From the IMG/VR virus record IMGVR_UViG_3300028146_000010, positions 1 through 64,000 of that record: a stretch of DNA of 64,000 nt. One strand, written 5' to 3'. The stretch is from a virus. Below, piece by piece: positions 8,519 through 49,211 of the stretch. Below the pieces are notes generated by a model that was given only the letters and a program-made list of their open reading frames with translations, was not told where the DNA came from and did no database searches. The stretch's first letter is position 1, and every line of letters begins with the position of its first letter. Both the position numbers and the translations under genes were made by a program.

Positions 8519-9117
8519 CAAGCATCAGCCTTCGGGTTTGATTGCTTGCTAACCAGTCCACGAATCGCCACGGCTAGTGCGGTAACTAAATCACTGAATA
8601 CTTCAGCTACGACTACAACCGGATCGCTTGCACTCGCAGGCACCTCCGGCACACTGGCAATGGTCAATTCGATGTCACCCGTTAGGCCGCTCGTTGGATC
8701 GTAACTCTGATTCGGTTCAAGATAATGAAAATCATCGTCACCTTTAATCGTCCACCAAGCGTTCTGAGATTCCAGCCCATTGCGAGTCTGAGCGAAATCC
8801 TGCCAATAGGGAACAAGGGACTGATTTTGGGCCACGGTAATATCCGCCGGATCGGAAATTGACGCACCGTACTTACATTGAGTCAACGCCACGTCCGGTA
8901 CAACCCCCACACCGTTCGTGAGAGCTATCGTATGTGTTCGACGTAAGAGACTTCGCCCTTCCTCATCTGCGGCCTTCTGTAGTCCGACATTCTGAAACAC
9001 CGACTGAACCAGCGATTCCATCGTCATGTCGGCATCCAGTAATGCAGACTTCAACTGGTCTATGCCTGTCAAGGCTTGCTGTAGCGCGAGGTCGATTAGT
9101 GTTTGATAAGTTGGCAT
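8518..9117 (-). CDS. Uncharacterised tail/connector cluster protein
   Basis: 199 residues, not recognised. The first 70 residues are helical (YQTLIDLALQQALTGIDQL) and are followed by beta strands (HTIALTNGVGVVPDVALTQ). No cysteine cluster or membrane segment. It begins 1 bp after the 243-residue gene and overlaps the next gene, so it belongs to the virion operon and is probably a structural or adaptor protein. Confidence 0.6.
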   Translation of the reverse strand: MPTYQTLIDLALQQALTGIDQLKSALLDADMTMESLVQSVFQNVGLQKAADEEGRSLLRRTHTIALTNGVGVVPDVALTQCKYGASISDPADITVAQNQSLVPYWQDFAQTRNGLESQNAWWTIKGDDDFHYLEPNQSYDPTSGLTGDIELTIASVPEVPASASDPVVVVAEVFSDLVTALAVAIRGLVSKQSNPKADA

Positions 9118-9118
9118 G

Positions 9119-9850
9119 TCACGCTGCGATTAAACTTGGCCCGGCAACGGCCTGTTCACTCACCGAAGTCAGCCCTTGACGAATACTTTGCTCCACCGCA
9201 TCTGCATAACCACGAAATACATTCGCTTGGGCCATAAACTCGTCGTCACGCACCAACGCACCAATCATGTCATAGCAGATGGCGTTAGCGAGAGAATCGG
9301 GTAAGGGTAAGTCGCCATTCGCCGCCACTAACGCCGCGATGGTATCCCAGCTGAACGTGCAGACCTGAACCACCACGCCATTAGGGCGCGTGTGCGTAAT
9401 TCCATCCCCCGACATCTTGAATCCATAAACCGGAATCACCCATGCGGATGGGTTGTTTAGTCGTCGCCGTATCACCTGATCGGGATACTCCGTGCAAACA
9501 ATCGTCTGATCGTCGGCGTCCAGCACGGAACCGTAGATGCCGACGATCGGATCGCCGTTAGCACCGACTGAAGGCATAGAATCGCCGCTAGCTAAAGTGG
9601 CCGTGACAGTAAATCCGACAAATGACCGCCACGGGTGATTCCCCGTTTCAGCGATCGCATTGGCGTACCGAGCGATGGAGGCGGTTTGTTGATCTAGGTA
9701 AGCAGTGAAAGGAAATATCGTTGACTGAAAATCCGCGCTGGTTAAAGGAAGCGTGGCGTAGGTCAGTTCCAATGCTACCGCCGAAGCGCCAACCAGCGCA
9801 TTGGTTCTGACTGCTGCCTCTCGAAGTATGGTATGTAGCGCAACGCTCAC
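9119..9850 (-). CDS. Uncharacterised virion-cluster protein
   Basis: 243 residues, not recognised. An N-terminal helical region (SVALHTILREAAVRTNALVG) leads into a mixed beta domain with VIRRRLNNPSAWVIPVYGFK, and the C-terminus is helical (YADAVEQSIRQGL). Spacing is 1 bp on both sides, so it is translated with its neighbours. It may be a connector or tail-completion protein. Confidence 0.6.
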   Translation of the reverse strand: MSVALHTILREAAVRTNALVGASAVALELTYATLPLTSADFQSTIFPFTAYLDQQTASIARYANAIAETGNHPWRSFVGFTVTATLASGDSMPSVGANGDPIVGIYGSVLDADDQTIVCTEYPDQVIRRRLNNPSAWVIPVYGFKMSGDGITHTRPNGVVVQVCTFSWDTIAALVAANGDLPLPDSLANAICYDMIGALVRDDEFMAQANVFRGYADAVEQSIRQGLTSVSEQAVAGPSLIAA

Positions 9851-11744: not shown

Positions 11745-12677
11745 TTATGCGTAAATTTGTACTTGTGAAGGTCGATGTGCTCGCCGTATTTCCGCCAACT
11801 CGTTCCGCTTCCTCACCTTCTCGTCCTTCATCATCTGCAAGCCCCAGACCTTTGCTTGCTGCAGCGCCACTTCGTCCAGTTCAGGACGGATATGGGGATT
11901 AGTGGCGGCTTCCTTGCTACGCAGGTGAATGGCCTTCTTCAACCATTTCAGCTCCCTACCGTCCGGTTCCTTGTATGTGCCGTAGCAAATCTCTCGTGAT
12001 TTATCCCATGCTCGCTGACAGCACTTATTCGCATGATCGGCAATTATCCCGACGTGCGGCAACATGTTGTACCAACCTTCACGCGGTACTGGCCCCCAGA
12101 CATCTTCGCTGACAGTGCGTAGGAAAGTATCCTGTGAGCAAAACCGACACGCCAACACGTGACCCTCCGACTTATCCGTATCCACCCAATGCACGAACAC
12201 TTTCCCATCATGCACCTGACTCGCATCCCACTTGGCAAACACCGTGATCAATTGATCCACGCTGAACATGCGACCGGGAGTTTTGCAGTAGCGGCACATG
12301 GCAGGTACAGGCTCAACCACCTTCAACCGATACCGTGTGGCTTCCCAGCTTACGGCCAATGCTTCTGGTTCAAACCGCTCCTCAAGTATCCAGCGAGGGG
12401 GCGAAATGTCCACGTAGTCGTCGTTGCCGATGTCGATGGATAGTGCGCGGTATTTCTGCCGCCACTCGCTCTCGGTTGCGTTTCCAAATTCGTCCCACGC
12501 GATATTCTCACGCTTCAAACATTCCCATGCCCATTTCAACTGAACAATGGAATGGCCCGATGGACTGAGGCCGACTATCCGATCAATCTTCCGCTGGTAC
12601 GCTTTCACGTCAAAGCTAGGCTGTTTGAATATCCCCGACGTGGCCCACTTCGTTTGATCGTTGTAAATTTCCAGCAT
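11745..12677 (-). CDS. Uncharacterised protein with C-x-x-C pairs
   Basis: 310 residues, not recognised. Cysteine pairs MCRYCKTPG (about 129-137) and LACRFCSQD (about 175-183) suggest one zinc site within a beta-rich region; the C-terminus is basic and helical (KDEKVRKRNELAEIRRAHR). The ATG lies 62 bp inside the end of the HNH gene, so the homing gene appears to have inserted immediately before it and shares its 3' end. Confidence 0.55.
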   Translation of the reverse strand: MLEIYNDQTKWATSGIFKQPSFDVKAYQRKIDRIVGLSPSGHSIVQLKWAWECLKRENIAWDEFGNATESEWRQKYRALSIDIGNDDYVDISPPRWILEERFEPEALAVSWEATRYRLKVVEPVPAMCRYCKTPGRMFSVDQLITVFAKWDASQVHDGKVFVHWVDTDKSEGHVLACRFCSQDTFLRTVSEDVWGPVPREGWYNMLPHVGIIADHANKCCQRAWDKSREICYGTYKEPDGRELKWLKKAIHLRSKEAATNPHIRPELDEVALQQAKVWGLQMMKDEKVRKRNELAEIRRAHRPSQVQIYA

Positions 12678-22678: not shown

Positions 22679-22907
22679 TGCGTTTCACGAAAGGCACGGC
22701 GGGAAGACCACGCACTAAGCTGTCAACCGCGTCGCTTAGGTTCTGTTGCAGCATTACAACGTCATCACTGTCCGACACCTGCTCGCTGAGATAAAACCGT
22801 TTCACCGCTGCGCGTAACACGGCATTTTCAAGACGCTGAACCTCGCTAGCTGCCGCTTCTATTTCCACCATCGAAGCAAATGTACGCGCAAATGGCGCGG
22901 GCGTCAA
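22668..22907 (-). CDS. Uncharacterised helical protein coupled to TerL
   Basis: 79 residues if it uses the TTG at 22907, which overlaps the TerL stop by 4 bp; an internal ATG at 22871 is the alternative, and neither has a strong ribosome site. Helical throughout (EAAASEVQRLENAVLRAAVK). Not recognised. Confidence 0.5.
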   Translation of the reverse strand: MTPAPFARTFASMVEIEAAASEVQRLENAVLRAAVKRFYLSEQVSDSDDVVMLQQNLSDAVDSLVRGLPAVPFVKRNGG

Positions 22908-24877
22908 TCTTCTTCTTGATCGTCGATGCCGATGGGGCGGTTGAACTCGTCAAACGTGACTAACTTTAGATTCGTTGCCCGACGTTTCGCTCTGGCCTGC
23001 TGGAAGTTATAAGCCATCTCCAATTCAGGGGTCAGACCGTGTTCGTAGGGCGAGCGTTTCAGTAATTCTTCGTAGCGGTAAGGTTCAGGGGTGGCGATAA
23101 CGACTTCCTCGGCTTCGGTCAGTTGATCCGCTTGAACGCCAAAGGTCGCCATCAGCCCACGGGCGCTATCGACCCAATCGTCATCAATCTTCTTTGCTCC
23201 TGCGTTACGATGCGAGTATAGCGGCATCTCAAATCGCGCCCGCGCTAATCCACCTGAATCTCTCGCGCCTGTGACGCGGAGTTTTAAGTTACCATCAATG
23301 TACAACTCGCCCTGACCATTCTCCACTACGAAATAGATTCGCGGCTTACCCATGAGTGGTTGACCTGCCTGCGGGTGTCCCGCCGGATACCGACGAAACG
23401 GATGAGGCTTAGAGCGGTCAATTTCAAGTAAGTTTTGAATCTGTGGTACACCGCTACCCTTTGCCGCTTTCCATTTGTTAAAGAATAGTTGAAGGTCACT
23501 AGGCAGATCGATTATCAACGTGTTGCGCGCCGCTGATGCTTCATGTGACATTTTGGACTGTTCGATCTGGCTCTCAACGATCCGCATCTCAGATTGAAAG
23601 GCTTTAACCGCTGCCGACACCCTGCCGGGACTAACTAGCTCCGCTTCCATTGATGGATCGTAGGGAAACTTTGGCAGCACTACCTCACCGATAACGAAGT
23701 GAGAATCATCATGCGGACAAGTCTTATCGGGCCGGGTAATGAAACACACCGACGAGGGATGTTGTCTGGTAGTCCCCCAGTCAAATCCACGACCCTTGTG
23801 CCACCGAGCCGGAATAAAGAACCCATTCTCATCCTTCATCGGCACATGCGGAAACCCTGCGGCCATCTCACTGCGGGTGATGATGTGGTAAACCTCATCC
23901 CATTCACGGAAATCCTTGTCGTCACCAACCTTAGTGACATCTTGCTGGCATTCCCTTTCAAATAAATCTTTCCCAATCTGGTTTAGAATAGATTCGCAGT
24001 AAGGAATAGGTAGCGCGGGGTCGAATGGCTCTCCTGCTGTAATCACCCAACGCTTTCCACCGCTGGGCATGTCCACTTTTTCCGCATCGTACCATTTCAT
24101 TAGCGGGTATGGCCCTTTAGGGTCATGGTCGATAAGCATGTCCGCTCGGTGATCCATAATTTGCGAAACAATAGAATCCCGATGAATTAAATTCTGGAAA
24201 ACCACATTCAGCGTGTTCGCATAACCAGCAAGAAGAATTTCGGATTTAAGCAAGTCGAGATTCTTGGCAATGACATCAGGCGACTCACCAAGGCTATCAA
24301 TGTCGTCAAACACAAGCAGGTCAAATCGCATGTCATCTTCAGACTTGAATCCACGATTTGAACCCTGCAAAGTAATTGGCACAATGGTCTGTCCTGCTTC
24401 GGTAACGAGACGATCCTGTGACCACGAGTTGAATGCATTGCGGTACTTTTGGACTCGGGGCTTTAGGTGGGGATAATCTTTAAGCAGCGCGGAATTTTCC
24501 AACTTGCGCCGAACGCCGTTAAAGTGCTGAGTAGCCTTAGCGTCTGTGCCGGAAATGTAGCCGATAGTTTGCCGACGCTTGCGAGCGAGAATGGATACCA
24601 GCCAAGTCTCCGCTGTAGTCGATTTTCCGGCCCCCCTTGGCTGACATTCTATGCGCGGGCGATAATAAACATCAGGCTGAATACCCCATCCCCAACTCCA
24701 GAAGTCGGATTGGTAACTAGTAAAGTCGCGGGTAAAGGGCTTTGGAAAATAATGCTTGACCCATGCTTGCCACCCCTCGGCCTCCAACGCCGCACCTTTG
24801 GACTGCGGGCCTGCTAACGCCAGTGCTTTGGCGACCGTTGCGGCTATGGTCAGGCCGGATAGTTTGCCGTTGGGCAT
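22904..24877 (-). CDS. Terminase large subunit
   Basis: 657 residues, the DNA-packaging motor. Walker A is QPRGAGKST (79-87, Lys85); Walker B is LLVFDDID (187-194, Asp191/Asp192); the C-terminal RNase H-like nuclease has RGFDWGTT (362-369, Asp365) and DDDWVDSARG (564-573, Asp566/Asp569). All expected catalytic positions are present and the length is usual for podophage TerL. It lies between the ejection proteins and the portal. The small subunit is far away at 42.2-42.7 kb, which is unusual. Confidence 0.93.
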   Translation of the reverse strand: MPNGKLSGLTIAATVAKALALAGPQSKGAALEAEGWQAWVKHYFPKPFTRDFTSYQSDFWSWGWGIQPDVYYRPRIECQPRGAGKSTTAETWLVSILARKRRQTIGYISGTDAKATQHFNGVRRKLENSALLKDYPHLKPRVQKYRNAFNSWSQDRLVTEAGQTIVPITLQGSNRGFKSEDDMRFDLLVFDDIDSLGESPDVIAKNLDLLKSEILLAGYANTLNVVFQNLIHRDSIVSQIMDHRADMLIDHDPKGPYPLMKWYDAEKVDMPSGGKRWVITAGEPFDPALPIPYCESILNQIGKDLFERECQQDVTKVGDDKDFREWDEVYHIITRSEMAAGFPHVPMKDENGFFIPARWHKGRGFDWGTTRQHPSSVCFITRPDKTCPHDDSHFVIGEVVLPKFPYDPSMEAELVSPGRVSAAVKAFQSEMRIVESQIEQSKMSHEASAARNTLIIDLPSDLQLFFNKWKAAKGSGVPQIQNLLEIDRSKPHPFRRYPAGHPQAGQPLMGKPRIYFVVENGQGELYIDGNLKLRVTGARDSGGLARARFEMPLYSHRNAGAKKIDDDWVDSARGLMATFGVQADQLTEAEEVVIATPEPYRYEELLKRSPYEHGLTPELEMAYNFQQARAKRRATNLKLVTFDEFNRPIGIDDQEED

Positions 24878-25151: not shown

Positions 25152-28100
25152 CTATGGCGCTGCCGCTAGCACCGTCCGTGGCTGTCGTGGTTTCGCGGCC
25201 TTGCGTGGCTGAGTTCTGCGGTACGCATCGGCAACTTGCTCGGGAATCTTACGAATCGCCTCAGCCTTGTCCTTCTCGCTCATCTTATCATAAGCCGAGC
25301 TACTTACCAGTGCGTCTGTTTGTTGCTGGATGTTGTAATTCACGGTTCGTCGTCGTTGCTCGTATTCATCAGGCGTTTCGTCAGGTTGAATTATCACGCC
25401 CTTTACATTGACACCCAACCGCTTCATTTCATCGCTGCCTTTAGATGGTTGGTTATTGAATACAGGGCTGATATTGAACGGCACTTGCTGCCGCAATCCC
25501 GGCACGCCCATTTCCATTGCTTGAGTGAACCCTTTGGGCCTACGCCGCGCTATCTCTGTTTCCTCTTTGTCGGTAGCTTTTGCTAACTCCTGCATGATTT
25601 GCGGTTCGACCCTCGCGGCCAGCCATTTACCCATCTGCGTTGACATCGTTTCGCCGTTCTTTAGCGAACTCACAGCATCGACATACTCATTGAGAAATGG
25701 GACTTGTTGAGCGGTGCCCTTTGCGCCAGTCGCCAGCCCTGTGCGTACTCGTTGCCCCAAACTTTGATCTTTATTCTGTGCTACTTGACTCTGAATCTCA
25801 CGTTTCAGTGTGGAGGTAAATTGCGCCAACTCATTCGGCGGACTATGTAGCGCCCAATGCGGGATCGTCACAGGGCCGACCTTCACATCACCGGGTTTCA
25901 CTTCGTTCTTATCACCGGCACCGCCATAGTAGCCGCCTAGTGCCACTTTGCCTGCGCCTGCGCCGCTCAGTCCGCCTAACGCCATGTAAATTAGACCTAC
26001 AGAACCGCGTTTCAATAACCGCATGGTCTTGTCTGCGGCCTCGGGACTGAGTTTGCCCATTAAGTCAGGGTTGCGACGTTCTAACTCTTTTGCCGCTTCA
26101 ACTATCGTGGCGTCCATGTTATGCGTAGATGTCTCCGCTACCGCCCGTCGTAACCGCACTTCACTGGCAATGCCGCGAGCAATGCCACGGGGAAGTCCTA
26201 AACCATATTCACCGATAAGTTGACCAAAGAGATAATTTGACGGTACGCGCTCCACGGGTACGAATATACGGCTGACATCTTGCCCTTCCTTGCTTAACAT
26301 TCGTCGCCCACCGCGAACCATTCTACTGAACGGGTTATCGCCCAGCATCATGATTTCTTCCGCGTGCTTTGCGGCAGCGTCGTCAATCCACTGCTTCACG
26401 TCAGGATCGTTAACGTCCATTCCCTGCTTTTCCGCCCATTGACGATTCTGTACTTTAGCGCGAGCGTTTTCACCCGATCCGAGAATGTTCTTTTCGGCCA
26501 TGTGAACACGCCCCGGCACGGCAAGGACGGTTCCGGCTTTTGTAGGAATTTGAGGATAACGCTTCCCTGCTTCTAACGTGAGCGAGGTTTCGCCTGACAT
26601 TAACGCACGAGGTATGTCTTTGACACCGCGACCAATCCCACGGGCAAATTCGGCTTCTGACTCGCCACTAATTCGCTGCCCATGACGCGGGGCCATTTCG
26701 GCGGTACGGGGAAACAATTTGCGCGCACCTTCACCTGCTACTTCGCCCATGTACTGTTGGGCGGCTGACTGGCCTAATGCCGATCCAATCTTACCAATGG
26801 TACGGGTTCCGGTGAGTAGGCCAGCGCGTACACCTGCCGCTGTGTAAGCCAGCCCTTTCTGAAACACATTCTTGTTCCGCCAATCAATCACATTGCCTAA
26901 ATTATCAATCTGCGATTGCAGGATTTTCGCGTTACGTTTAGCAACGCGCACCTCGTCGGTTTCAGGCGTGACTTTCTGTTCAGGCTTAACGGCCCGCTGA
27001 CCAGTCTTCTGCATGTCGGTCAATTCAGCCTGCATGTCACGGACTTTACCCGCCCATCGCTGGCCGCTGGCCTTCTGTACGTTCAAGGTCTTCCGTGCTT
27101 CGGCTTCGTATTCCGCCCAGCTACCCGTTGCGCCGTAGAAGGATGCTTTCGGCTGCGGAGCTTCACGAGCTTTGCGCGCCGCGTCGGCTCGCATGTCAGT
27201 GACGATCTGGCGAAGTGTGGCTCGTTCTTTTTCTGCGGCTCCGATTTCAGGCGACCACAGTGACCTTGCACCTTCACGAACCTCTGGCTTGACCTTACCT
27301 GATCGAATCGCTGCCTGATTCTCAGAGATAGACTTATTGAGTTCGGTTAGCCGCCGCTCAACTGCCTTCTGGTCAGCCGCAGGATCGCTAATCAGTGCCG
27401 CCGCTTTCTCTAGCCCCGCCTGCTCGGCTTTCAGTTGCCGCAGTTCGCTGTCAGGGATGACTTGTTGCCGCCCCTGAACCTCTTTCTTGCCGCTCGCTAT
27501 CCATGACTTCAACTGCTCAATTCGATTGCGGGTGGTCTGTTTCGCCTTGTCCAGTGGAGTAGCCTGCTCGGTTTCAGGGTTATAAGGCTTCTCACCTAAC
27601 TTCACCCCTTGCTCGCGCATAGCGTCTTGGAGTTCACGAAGGGCGCGGCGCTGATCTTCGGTGGGTTTATCACGTTGTTGGCCCCGGCGTAACGGCCTGA
27701 TTCCTTTTTCCACGACATCAGCCTTGCCTGACGTGGAAGCGAGAATAGATTGAACTTCATTCAGTTTCTTTTCTACCGCGTCGGTAGTTGTTTTCTTGAT
27801 TTGTCCATAGCCTGAAATAAGGTCACTAACTTCACGCTTTGAAAGATCAGAAACGTCCTTTAAGTGAGCATGGATAGAATCAACTATGTCCCCTGCTTTT
27901 GTAACGCCATCTTCGATGTAATTACGCGCCAAGTCTCGAACTACCCGCGCCATTTCCCCTGCCTTAGCGGGATCGAACTCGCCCTTCTCACTGTGAATAA
28001 ATTCAGCAACGGATCGGGAGCCTGTAAGTTTGGCGAATTGCTGTTTTAGATCGGCGCGTTCAGTAGCTAACACCTCGCGGGTTCTCTGTCGCGCTTGGGA

Positions 28101-47269: not shown

Positions 47270-47507
47270 CTTCAGAGCCTCACGGCTGACAGGTGACGTG
47301 AAGGTTTGCGTCATGCGGTTATCAAGCGAGGAGTACGCGGACGTTGCCTTTGCCGACGACGGCGCACCGCTGGCTGCACAGTTTCCCGACTACATCTATG
47401 TTCTCGGAATCAACGACATGGACAAGATATTGGAGATTGCGCCCGTACCGACCGCTGGCATGTTGGAGTTGTTTCCTGAGTTGGCAGATTGGGCGGTGAT
47501 GCCATGA
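47250..47507 (+). CDS. Uncharacterised small protein
   Basis: 85 residues if it starts at the ATG at 47250, 9 bp after GGAGG; ATGs at 47241, 47244 and 47253 are close alternatives. Alpha/beta pattern (RLTGDVKVCVMRLSSEEYAD; YIYVLGINDMDKILEIAPVP). Coupled to a 25-residue microgene by ATGA. Not recognised. Confidence 0.5.
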   Translation: MMKPTTSFRASRLTGDVKVCVMRLSSEEYADVAFADDGAPLAAQFPDYIYVLGINDMDKILEIAPVPTAGMLELFPELADWAVMP

Positions 47508-47581
47508 CGAATGCTGACCTCTACCGATTAGTCCGCAAATCTCCCTTCCGCCGCCTGCTGGATTGGCTGGTGGGATGGTGA
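47504..47581 (+). CDS. Microprotein (25 aa)
   Basis: MTNADLYRLVRKSPFRRLLD followed by WLVGW. Start overlaps the preceding stop by 4 bp. Short basic amphipathic helix, last gene before the iteron region. Confidence 0.45.
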   Translation: MTNADLYRLVRKSPFRRLLDWLVGW

Positions 47582-47595
47582 CGCGACATTAGTTA

Positions 47596-47668
47596 GTACA
47601 CACGCGCGCGTAGACACAATTTGAAATTCGTGTTTAACAAGACTAAGTAGCTGATAGATAGATAGATA
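47596..47668. repeat. Alternating purine-pyrimidine tract and GATA repeat
   Basis: A 17-bp strictly alternating purine/pyrimidine run (47596-47612), including C-G steps, could adopt Z-DNA. It is followed by GATAGATAGATAGATA (47653-47668). Both lie next to the dyad iteron array, as expected of an unwinding region. Confidence 0.6.
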
Positions 47669-47672
47669 ACGA

Positions 47673-47774
47673 TTGGACAGGGCTTGGACAATGGACGGAC
47701 AAACTTGGACAGTGTTTAACACCAAGACGGAAAAATGTCCAAGAATGTCCAAGCATTGTCTAACGCCTGTCCAA
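47673..47774. repeat. Dyad-symmetric iteron array (candidate origin or partition/control site)
   Basis: Eight heptamers related to TTGGACA. Forward copies start at 47673, 47684, 47695 (ACGGACA) and 47705. Inverted copies (TGTCCAA) start at 47736, 47746, 47757 (TGTCTAA) and 47768. Successive copies are 10-11 bp apart, so they lie on one face of the helix, and mirrored pairs all sum to 95447, so the array is exactly symmetric about 47723.5. The centre contains the small palindrome GTGTTTAACAC. The array sits just past the 3' end of the RepA-like helicase gene. Confidence 0.8.
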
Positions 47775-47785
47775 CAGCTAAGTCC

Positions 47786-48709
47786 TTAATTATCAACGCT
47801 AATTGGGTGATCCTCTGCTATTTTCAGAGGGGGACGGTCTGAGCGTTCATAAACGCCAGCGTCCAGCGGAGTGAGAACTTGATTTTTTACGCAGTCCGTC
47901 ATGGCGCGATCCCCGGTCTTTTCGCTCACGTTCAAAGCCTTCGCCCATGCGATAATTTCAGACCGCAGTACCACGCTTCCCGCGCTCAGAGCCTCGATTC
48001 TCAGTTTCAGGGCCGCGCTTGGCTTGACTGAGGCAAGGGGCACTAACACGCCGTTGTTTCCAAACACGTAGCCGTGAGTCTCAGACGCCGCATTACGGGG
48101 CAAGATTTTGACTTTGATGTTGCCTGTGGATTCTTCCAGTTGAACGGTGATGATCGTATCGGAGTACGCGCCCCACGCGACCGAGCCAAGGATTAACTCT
48201 CGGGAATGCTGAAAGCCTTCGTCCAGTTTCATCTTTGGCGAGTGGGCGATGCCGAGGATTGTTATCTTCCGTTTCGCGCACAGCGTGGCGCTCTTTTTCA
48301 ACAGTCCAGCCACGGGCGCATAGCTGTTCCCTTTGTCGCCTACCAACGTCTGATAGCCCTCCACGATAAAGAACTTGGCGTCTGGGTAGACTTTCAGGGC
48401 CGCGTCAATGACACCTGCGATGGTTGCAACAGTGGATTCTATATCCTCTTGGCAGATAGTTCGAGTGATGATGTCGGCTAGTCCTAGTCGTTCCAATGTG
48501 CGCGTGACAGATGAACGCGAGCGGTCGAGGCTGATATAGACGTAAGGAACGGGATGCGATTCGTGACCAAATACCGGATCGCCGTTCTGCCAGTCGGCTA
48601 GAGTCTGGAAAATGAGCGTGGTCTTACCTGAGCCGGACGATCCGCCAAGCAAGTGGATTTCATTCGCAGGCAGTATTCCTTCTATAAGGAACTCAGGTGA
48701 ATCAGGCAA
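47786..48709 (-). CDS. RepA/DnaB-type hexameric helicase-like ATPase
   Basis: 307 residues. LLGGSSGSGKTTLIFQTLAD has Walker A at 22-30; DAKFFIVEGYQTLVGD (about 112-127) is the Walker B region, with Glu where many RepA-like proteins have Asp. KITILGIAHSPK matches the sensor/H4 motif of RecA-like helicases of the RepA/AAA_25 group. The C-terminal ~90 residues include an HTH-like tail (LRSEIIAWAKALNVSEKTGD). Likely role: replicative helicase or origin-binding ATPase for the adjacent iterons. No separate primase or polymerase is seen. Confidence 0.75.
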   Translation of the reverse strand: MPDSPEFLIEGILPANEIHLLGGSSGSGKTTLIFQTLADWQNGDPVFGHESHPVPYVYISLDRSRSSVTRTLERLGLADIITRTICQEDIESTVATIAGVIDAALKVYPDAKFFIVEGYQTLVGDKGNSYAPVAGLLKKSATLCAKRKITILGIAHSPKMKLDEGFQHSRELILGSVAWGAYSDTIITVQLEESTGNIKVKILPRNAASETHGYVFGNNGVLVPLASVKPSAALKLRIEALSAGSVVLRSEIIAWAKALNVSEKTGDRAMTDCVKNQVLTPLDAGVYERSDRPPLKIAEDHPISVDN

Positions 48710-48712
48710 ACG

Positions 48713-49048
48713 CTACCACTCCCACGGCTTGCGCCGTCGATTCTTCCGATTATGCATAACGTTATCGGTAGGCTCATAGCGCCTGATCATGTATTGCTCT
48801 ACGATGTCCAAATCTTGAGGCTCAAGAGCAATCCACGCGACGTGACAATCGGCTAAAAACCATCCTCGCTTCTTACAGCGACGGCGCAAGGACGTAGCCT
48901 TACCGATATACATGATGCCGTATTTAGGGTGAATAAGAATGTAGACGCCTGAGCGATCCGGCAACCTGCCGCATAAGGCATCTATGACCCGCCGACTACC
49001 GAAACAAACGGGCTTGCTGAGAATCTCACGCAGCCTTTCGTTTTCCAT
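48713..49048 (-). CDS. GIY-YIG endonuclease-like protein
   Basis: 111 residues from the internal ATG at 49048 (an ATG at 49105 would overlap the HTH gene more). SGVYILIHPKYGIMYIGKA (about 34-52) is the GIY-YIG core with conserved tyrosines, followed by SLRRRCKKRG and the EQYMIRRYEP helix containing the catalytic-type Glu. The basic C-terminus (NRKNRRRKPWEW) should bind DNA. Known role: homing or structure-specific nuclease. Here it lies between the HTH and helicase genes. Confidence 0.75.
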   Translation of the reverse strand: MENERLREILSKPVCFGSRRVIDALCGRLPDRSGVYILIHPKYGIMYIGKATSLRRRCKKRGWFLADCHVAWIALEPQDLDIVEQYMIRRYEPTDNVMHNRKNRRRKPWEW

Positions 49049-49211
49049 TTTTGCGCGCTTTGTAGCGGTCGATTTGAGATTGCTTGATAAGCCACACGCC
49101 GCCAATGTTTACCGCTTCGATTCGGCCCGCAATGATTAGCTGGCGGATTCGACTGTCGGTAACGCCTAGCTGTGCGCCTGCTTCTGTGGTGGTTACACGT
49201 CCTGCAATCAT
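49026..49211 (-). CDS. Excisionase/MerR-like HTH protein
   Basis: 61 residues. VTTTEAGAQLGVTDSRIRQL then IIAGRIEAVNIGGVWLIKQS is the small excisionase (HTH_17) layout: winged helix with a G-G-x-W-x-I wing and basic tail. It leads the leftward helicase cassette with its own leaderless-type promoter. Likely a transcription or DNA-architecture factor. Confidence 0.75.
   Translation of the reverse strand: MIAGRVTTTEAGAQLGVTDSRIRQLIIAGRIEAVNIGGVWLIKQSQIDRYKARKNGKRKAA

Follow-up and report, generated by a model that had tools for sequence, protein, structure and literature searches.

The motors of SaPI Rep and SCCmec Cch2 are of the AAA+ type. In both proteins, the C-terminal domain binds iterons directly downstream of the protein's own gene, and two hexamers have been proposed (PMC7581432). 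The locus reported here lies in a 64,000-nucleotide stretch of viral DNA (the window), and a preliminary description of this DNA had not recognised its layout from any described system. That judgement stands for the motor family, which differs from that of SaPI Rep and Cch2, but the position and logic of the locus match the origins of SaPI Rep and SCCmec Cch2 (PMC7581432). We infer from the sequence that an array of short repeats and an adjoining unwinding element very probably act together as a tailed-phage replication origin of the iteron type, located 3' of a helicase gene.

The array (47673-47774) comprises eight heptamers of the TTGGACA type, four per strand, of which six are exact, one carries one mismatch and one carries two. 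It occupies a non-coding gap between convergent genes, 12 bp beyond the helicase stop codon. The DNA elements are as follows.

47596-47612, no strand assigned: 17-bp alternating purine-pyrimidine run, CG-rich (GTACACACGCGCGCGTA), outward of the unwinding element
47630-47669, no strand assigned: probable DNA unwinding element, from a scan for the least stable DNA, including GATA x4 (47653-47668)
47631-47639, no strand assigned: outlying copy of TGTTTAACA, 40 bp ahead of the first heptamer; the related record G001 has TTAAACA at an equal 40-bp distance
47673-47711, + strand: left half-array, with TTGGACA at 47673, TTGGACA at 47684, ACGGACA at 47695 (two mismatches, weak) and TTGGACA at 47705; kept in G001
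47713-47721, no strand assigned: central palindrome TGTTTAACA, 10 bp after the fourth left site and in phase with the left half; identical in G001
47736-47774, - strand: right half-array, with TGTCCAA at 47736, TGTCCAA at 47746, TGTCTAA at 47757 (one mismatch) and TGTCCAA at 47768; kept in G001

Start-to-start steps between heptamers are 11, 11 and 10 bp, then 31 bp across the centre, then 10, 11 and 11 bp, and the positions of mirrored heptamers sum to 95441 for all four pairs. The preliminary description, which reported two opposed groups of four sites spaced 10-11 bp apart with equal mirrored sums, was therefore correct on the layout, and overlooked the central palindrome, a ninth phased element, together with its outlying copy. 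Six exact heptamers fall within about 100 bp, versus a maximum of three copies of any heptamer per 110 bp in 30 Markov-1 genomes of equal length. The preliminary description held such regularity to be hard to obtain by chance. Once two phased groups are given, however, exact mirroring is not as unlikely as it seems: P is approximately 0.001 under a minimum-spacing null, but only about 1/8 when every step may be 10 or 11. The symmetry is partly explained by a step that is nearly constant at 10/11 bp, so that more weight falls on the phasing and on the 4+4 inversion. Multiple short repeats in helical phase, which are expected of an iteron origin, are evident both in the 10-11 bp steps and in a 10-bp indel that distinguishes G001.

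An iteron origin should also adjoin an easily melted, A+T-rich unwinding element, and when separate 40-bp stretches of the 72,991-base record are ranked by stability, that from 47630 to 47669 falls within the lowest three. Both the 17-bp alternating run and the GATA x4 that had been reported near the array are present, and a CGCGCGCG run is found on the equivalent side in G001 and in locus L194 of record G024. Cumulative GC skew, a check proposed in the preliminary description, was rejected as an origin test since it is confounded by gene orientation. The skew minimum lies 5.6 kb from the array in the window phage, 2.3 kb in G001 and 10 kb in G024, and the minima of the window phage and G001 coincide with a switch in gene orientation.

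Three genes on the strand opposite to that shown, together with one predicted protein domain, complete the locus.

47786-48709, - strand: AAA_25/RepA-like RecA-fold replicative helicase, 307 aa (Pfam AAA_25, 6.4e-16; PHROG DNA primase/helicase; model matches KaiC/RecA folds)
47834-48022, - strand: predicted winged helix-turn-helix at the C terminus of the helicase (residues 230-292; AlphaFold2 model, pLDDT ~80-91 there, order H-E-H-H-E-E)
48713-49105, - strand: GIY-YIG nuclease-like gene, overlapping the HTH_17 gene and absent from the proteins common to the window and G001
49026-49211, - strand: excisionase-family HTH_17 (TIGR01764) protein, 61 aa, upstream of the helicase in the window, G001 and L194; a rival candidate for binding the array, with Pukovnik Xis (4J2N) as the nearest solved structure

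The AAA_25 match and the KaiC/RecA-fold model are compatible with the earlier assignment of the neighbouring gene to the RepA/DnaB-type ATPases. The AlphaFold2 model of the helicase has an overall pLDDT of 64.6 and is weak outside the C-terminal winged helix, which is, judging from this model, most likely the candidate array-binding domain. One of four helicase C-terminal domains matches the AbiEi_4 regulator model (1.3e-4). A tblastn search of cultured phages and plasmids gave no homologue of the helicase, nor did genome contigs, and the PDB gave no sequence match to RSF1010 RepA. Its relatives are all uncultured records, which are possibly incomplete. Identity to the window helicase is 68-69% in G001, 51-52% in L194/G024 and 36% overall in locus L327 of record G025, and divergence is quicker in the C-terminal domain (54/34/20%) than over the full length (69/52/36%).

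Looking for the symmetric array in relatives that carry the helicase was a test put forward in the preliminary description, and phased inverted arrays are indeed kept in G001, L194 and L327, each directly 3' of the helicase gene and two of them with changed heptamers. G001 (70.8 kb) has structural genes and the helicase in common with the window, with 65% DNA identity at the array region. It carries all eight sites and TGTTTAACA, with mirror sums of 66416, 66416, 66415 and 66415, and a central gap of 21 bp versus 31 bp in the window, shorter by exactly 10 bp or one helix turn. Between these two arrays, 53 of 63 positions are identical within the sites (84%) versus 13 of 29 within the linkers (45%; p 0.0003). 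In L194, the HTH_17 gene is followed by the helicase gene, which has eight TTTGCAA-type sites on its 3' side, with mirror sums of 11969-11971. The L327 array is built of TGGCGGR sites, of which three are forward and five inverted, with steps of 8-12 bp within groups (mostly 10-12). The DNA beside the array is within the least stable 0.08% in G001 and is the absolute minimum of the record in G024, and the L327 locus reaches its lowest stability right beside the array, on the opposite side from the window layout. Given that relatives keep a phased inverted array made of TTTGCAA or TGGCGGR, the plan of the array outlives the sequence of its sites. L197, whose helicase is 25% identical, has no array.

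The window and G001 also encode a large protein, a probable terminase (22904-24877, - strand; 74% identical between the two), that has no match in 50,697 phage records. This phage group seems to be without a sequenced isolate.

Conserved phased arrays beside the helicase, their contact with the least stable DNA and the occurrence of TTGGACA in known initiator genes all favour the replication origin that was the first reading of this DNA. We consider it likely that the full explanation is an iteron origin whose mechanism is built on the helicase. As for what recognises the heptamers, we lean towards the helicase itself, because it is the only constant partner of the arrays. Its C-terminal winged helices would dock along a single face of the DNA, each turn of the helix offering a heptamer to one domain. 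Because the half-arrays face each other, two helicase assemblies would be placed in opposite orientation, and loading should be bidirectional. The strain of binding might then open the adjacent, easily melted 40 bp, such that each assembly could encircle one strand and the host polymerase could copy in both directions. Family A polymerases, the only family looked for, were not found in G000. HTH_17 would probably assist, either as a co-binding filament former or as a regulator, and the two proteins may act jointly.

A rather unlikely alternative, and the one that survives best, is an origin read by HTH_17, wherein a head-to-tail filament of this protein would coat each half-array and recruit the helicase, much as RepC serves RepA in RSF1010. 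Judged by fold, HTH_17 could read the sites just as plausibly as the helicase: the structures of Pukovnik Xis, BldC and RdfS match its model (pLDDT 85), and this fold family binds direct repeats one turn apart (PMC7498355, PMC11963761). The gene precedes that of the helicase in the window, G001 and L194, where the proteins score 42.2, 45.6 and 30.9 bits, respectively, against a TIGR01764 cut-off of 28.8 bits, and the G001 protein is 61% identical. G009, G010 and G012, each of which has an AAA_25 helicase and TTGGACA arrays, likewise contain HTH_17 matches above the cut-off. A true excisionase should have a cognate integrase in its genome, and no match to a tyrosine or serine recombinase that HTH_17 could serve was found in G000, G001 and G024, records that may be incomplete. 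HTH_17 was indeed the leading candidate before L327 was considered, but G025 combines the helicase and an array without any HTH_17 match, so that only three of the four records have the protein. Furthermore, the RIRQL segment of its recognition helix is identical in the TTGGACA phages and the TTTGCAA phage, while the C-terminal domain of the helicase diverges faster than the full-length protein. We therefore favour the helicase over HTH_17, given the record that lacks the latter and the RIRQL segment that is unchanged across the switch of heptamers.

The GIY-YIG-like gene probably lies outside the core module, because the set of proteins common to the window and G001 does not include its product and because the HTH_17 gene of L194 stands directly before the helicase gene. 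An origin-directed nuclease encoded by ICP1 phages has been likened to GIY-YIG enzymes (PMC8263062), and by analogy it is conceivable that the GIY-YIG-like product has an anti-competitor role at origins.

An origin recognised by its structure, or an RNA element, is very unlikely. Under this explanation, the ~100-nt inverted repeat would act as a stem-loop or cruciform, a role proposed for pRN1 and phage BIP-1, or as a terminator between the convergent genes. The array does fold as a long hairpin (RNA z -7.7, DNA z -6.8), and pRN1 has an essential stem-loop of ~100 nt that is likewise 3' of its rep gene (PMC4234260). However, the hairpin exists because the iterons are inverted, the mirrored linkers are barely complementary (6/11, 4/11 and 3/17), and a direct repeat at one-turn steps within each arm is superfluous for a hairpin. 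The RNA stem-loop or terminator was dropped on account of these non-complementary linkers and of the lack of a T-run terminator at the array.

Still more doubtful is the control site that the preliminary description had offered as an alternative, an operator for the cassette bound by an array of repressors. Apl of phage 186 does repress promoters via arrays spaced 10-11 bp (PMC7498355), but the present array is downstream of the helicase in a gap where two genes converge, a search of 47400-47900 gave no promoter-like site, and an operator leaves the linkage to the least stable DNA unexplained.

Phased arrays are also found at parC-like and attP sites. Nevertheless, the other alternative offered earlier, a partition (centromere) site, is the least credible reading together with an integrase attachment site with excisionase sites: attP of phage 186 carries a phased array (PMC7498355), but there is no ParA-type AAA_31 partner in the four related records and no recombinase in the three noted above, all of which may be fragments.

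The putative helicase-linked origin might extend well beyond these relatives. Nine further named phages with AAA_25 helicases were picked regardless of motif, and four of them carry dense, lineage-specific heptamer arrays no more than 350 bp 3' of the helicase gene: 15 copies of CGTGACA in RHph_X2_25 (L336), 11 of CTACAAA in CRP-823 (L339), eight of ATGTCCA in Vibrio phage 1256 (L340) and seven of GCGGGAC in Oekolampad (L338), versus at most five copies in 300 control segments. In the remaining five (Kamiyu, Virgeve, Wooper, Trine and SS3e), of which three are close relatives of one another, no array was found on the 3' side of the gene, so not every AAA_25 helicase follows the plan. The four arrays are unannotated, and these phages would be good experimental models for this type of origin. 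The AAA_25 primase-helicase of SS3e (L337, 496-3182) resembles that of the window in being preceded, two genes earlier, by an annotated regulator of excisionase type, but it has no 3' array. In L331 (4690-4960), ten AGTTCAC sites in both orientations lie directly 3' of a gene for an 842-aa AAA_25 primase-helicase-like protein, a distant homologue. The initial TTGGACA set was selected by motif, and the only loci chosen independently of it are L194, L327, L331 and those of the nine named phages.

Within the motif-selected set, the metagenomic records G005, G009 and G012 have TTGGACA arrays at or just past the end of the AAA_25 helicase gene. The heptamer recurs in unrelated phages, where phased runs (at least three sites at 11-bp steps) occur in 44 of 120 pattern hits, many of which are near-copies of one lambdoid O gene, versus 0 of 120 for a scrambled heptamer, and recurrence by chance was rejected on this basis. 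Many of these TTGGACA runs lie mid-way along initiator genes, both those encoding Phage_rep_org_N plus DnaB_2 and the O-like genes of HK633, HK106 and mEp234. Such arrays are present in the Phage_rep_org_N initiator genes of L037 and of Streptococcus satellite phages (Javan205 and others), and the heptamer is common to satellites and full phages. For the initiator gene of L061, the only DNA similarity to cultured phages is a 72-bp segment with the TTGGACA array (9055-9126, matching 26257-26328 of Lactobacillus phage Lc-Nu), which suggests that this origin is conserved or exchanged separately from its gene. L045 (1619-1910) has a large intergenic TTGGACA set, with forward sites at one end, inverted sites at the opposite end and AT-rich DNA separating the two.

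We tentatively raise the possibility that these loci belong to a widespread, undescribed class of tailed-phage replicon, in which an AAA_25 helicase or primase-helicase would carry its own winged-helix reader, a phased heptamer array would lie directly 3' of its gene, and reader and array would be recoded together by lineage. The lineage heptamers of this proposed class are TTGGACA, TTTGCAA, TGGCGGR, AGTTCAC, CGTGACA, CTACAAA, GCGGGAC and ATGTCCA. If true, an SF4-type replicative helicase would serve as its own origin-recognition protein, a job usually left to a separate initiator. To our knowledge, this ability has so far been attributed to AAA+/SF3 helicases. Origins are unknown for most uncultured phages, and if dense phased heptamers 3' of AAA_25 genes mark them, sequence should suffice to locate origins across many phages. 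Paired with their arrays, the C-terminal domains of these helicases would likewise form a natural data set on how DNA recognition is coded.

Among known systems, the lambdoid O and Phage_rep_org_N origins (TP901-1 and Tuc2009 type) resemble the window locus in combining iterons with AT-rich DNA and in having TTGGACA at 11-bp steps. Their arrays are inside the initiator gene and are one-directional or mixed, whereas that of the window is in a non-coding gap, and no Phage_rep_org_N or lambda O initiator domain was found in the proteins neighbouring it. pRN1 ORF904 and phage BIP-1 similarly have an origin 3' of a winged-helix helicase gene with inverted symmetry over ~100 bp (PMC4234260), but they employ an SF3 primase-helicase and a stem-loop where the window has iterons. 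BIP-1 was rejected as a hidden TTGGACA case, with no TTGGACA near the end of its rep gene. The window recalls the RepA-RepC-oriV system of RSF1010 (IncQ) through its putatively RepA-like helicase and its iterons, and three of the four related records add a small protein of DNA-binding type that is encoded separately and upstream. In RSF1010, however, RepC and the iterons form a separate initiator system, whereas the small protein here is an excisionase-family winged helix-turn-helix that is absent in G025, and the window helicase has a predicted winged helix-turn-helix of its own.

The locus is like those of SaPI Rep and Cch2 in having its iterons directly downstream of the helicase gene, and a C-terminal DNA-binding domain is predicted for the helicase. 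Unlike these proteins, the window helicase has a RecA-fold, AAA_25/RepA-like motor and does not share their AAA+-type motor family, and Cch2 has 5-nt direct repeats in place of the inverted 4+4 heptamers at helix-turn steps. The window system presumably works like the P4-type initiator helicases, from whose family its AAA_25/RecA-fold motor sets it apart.
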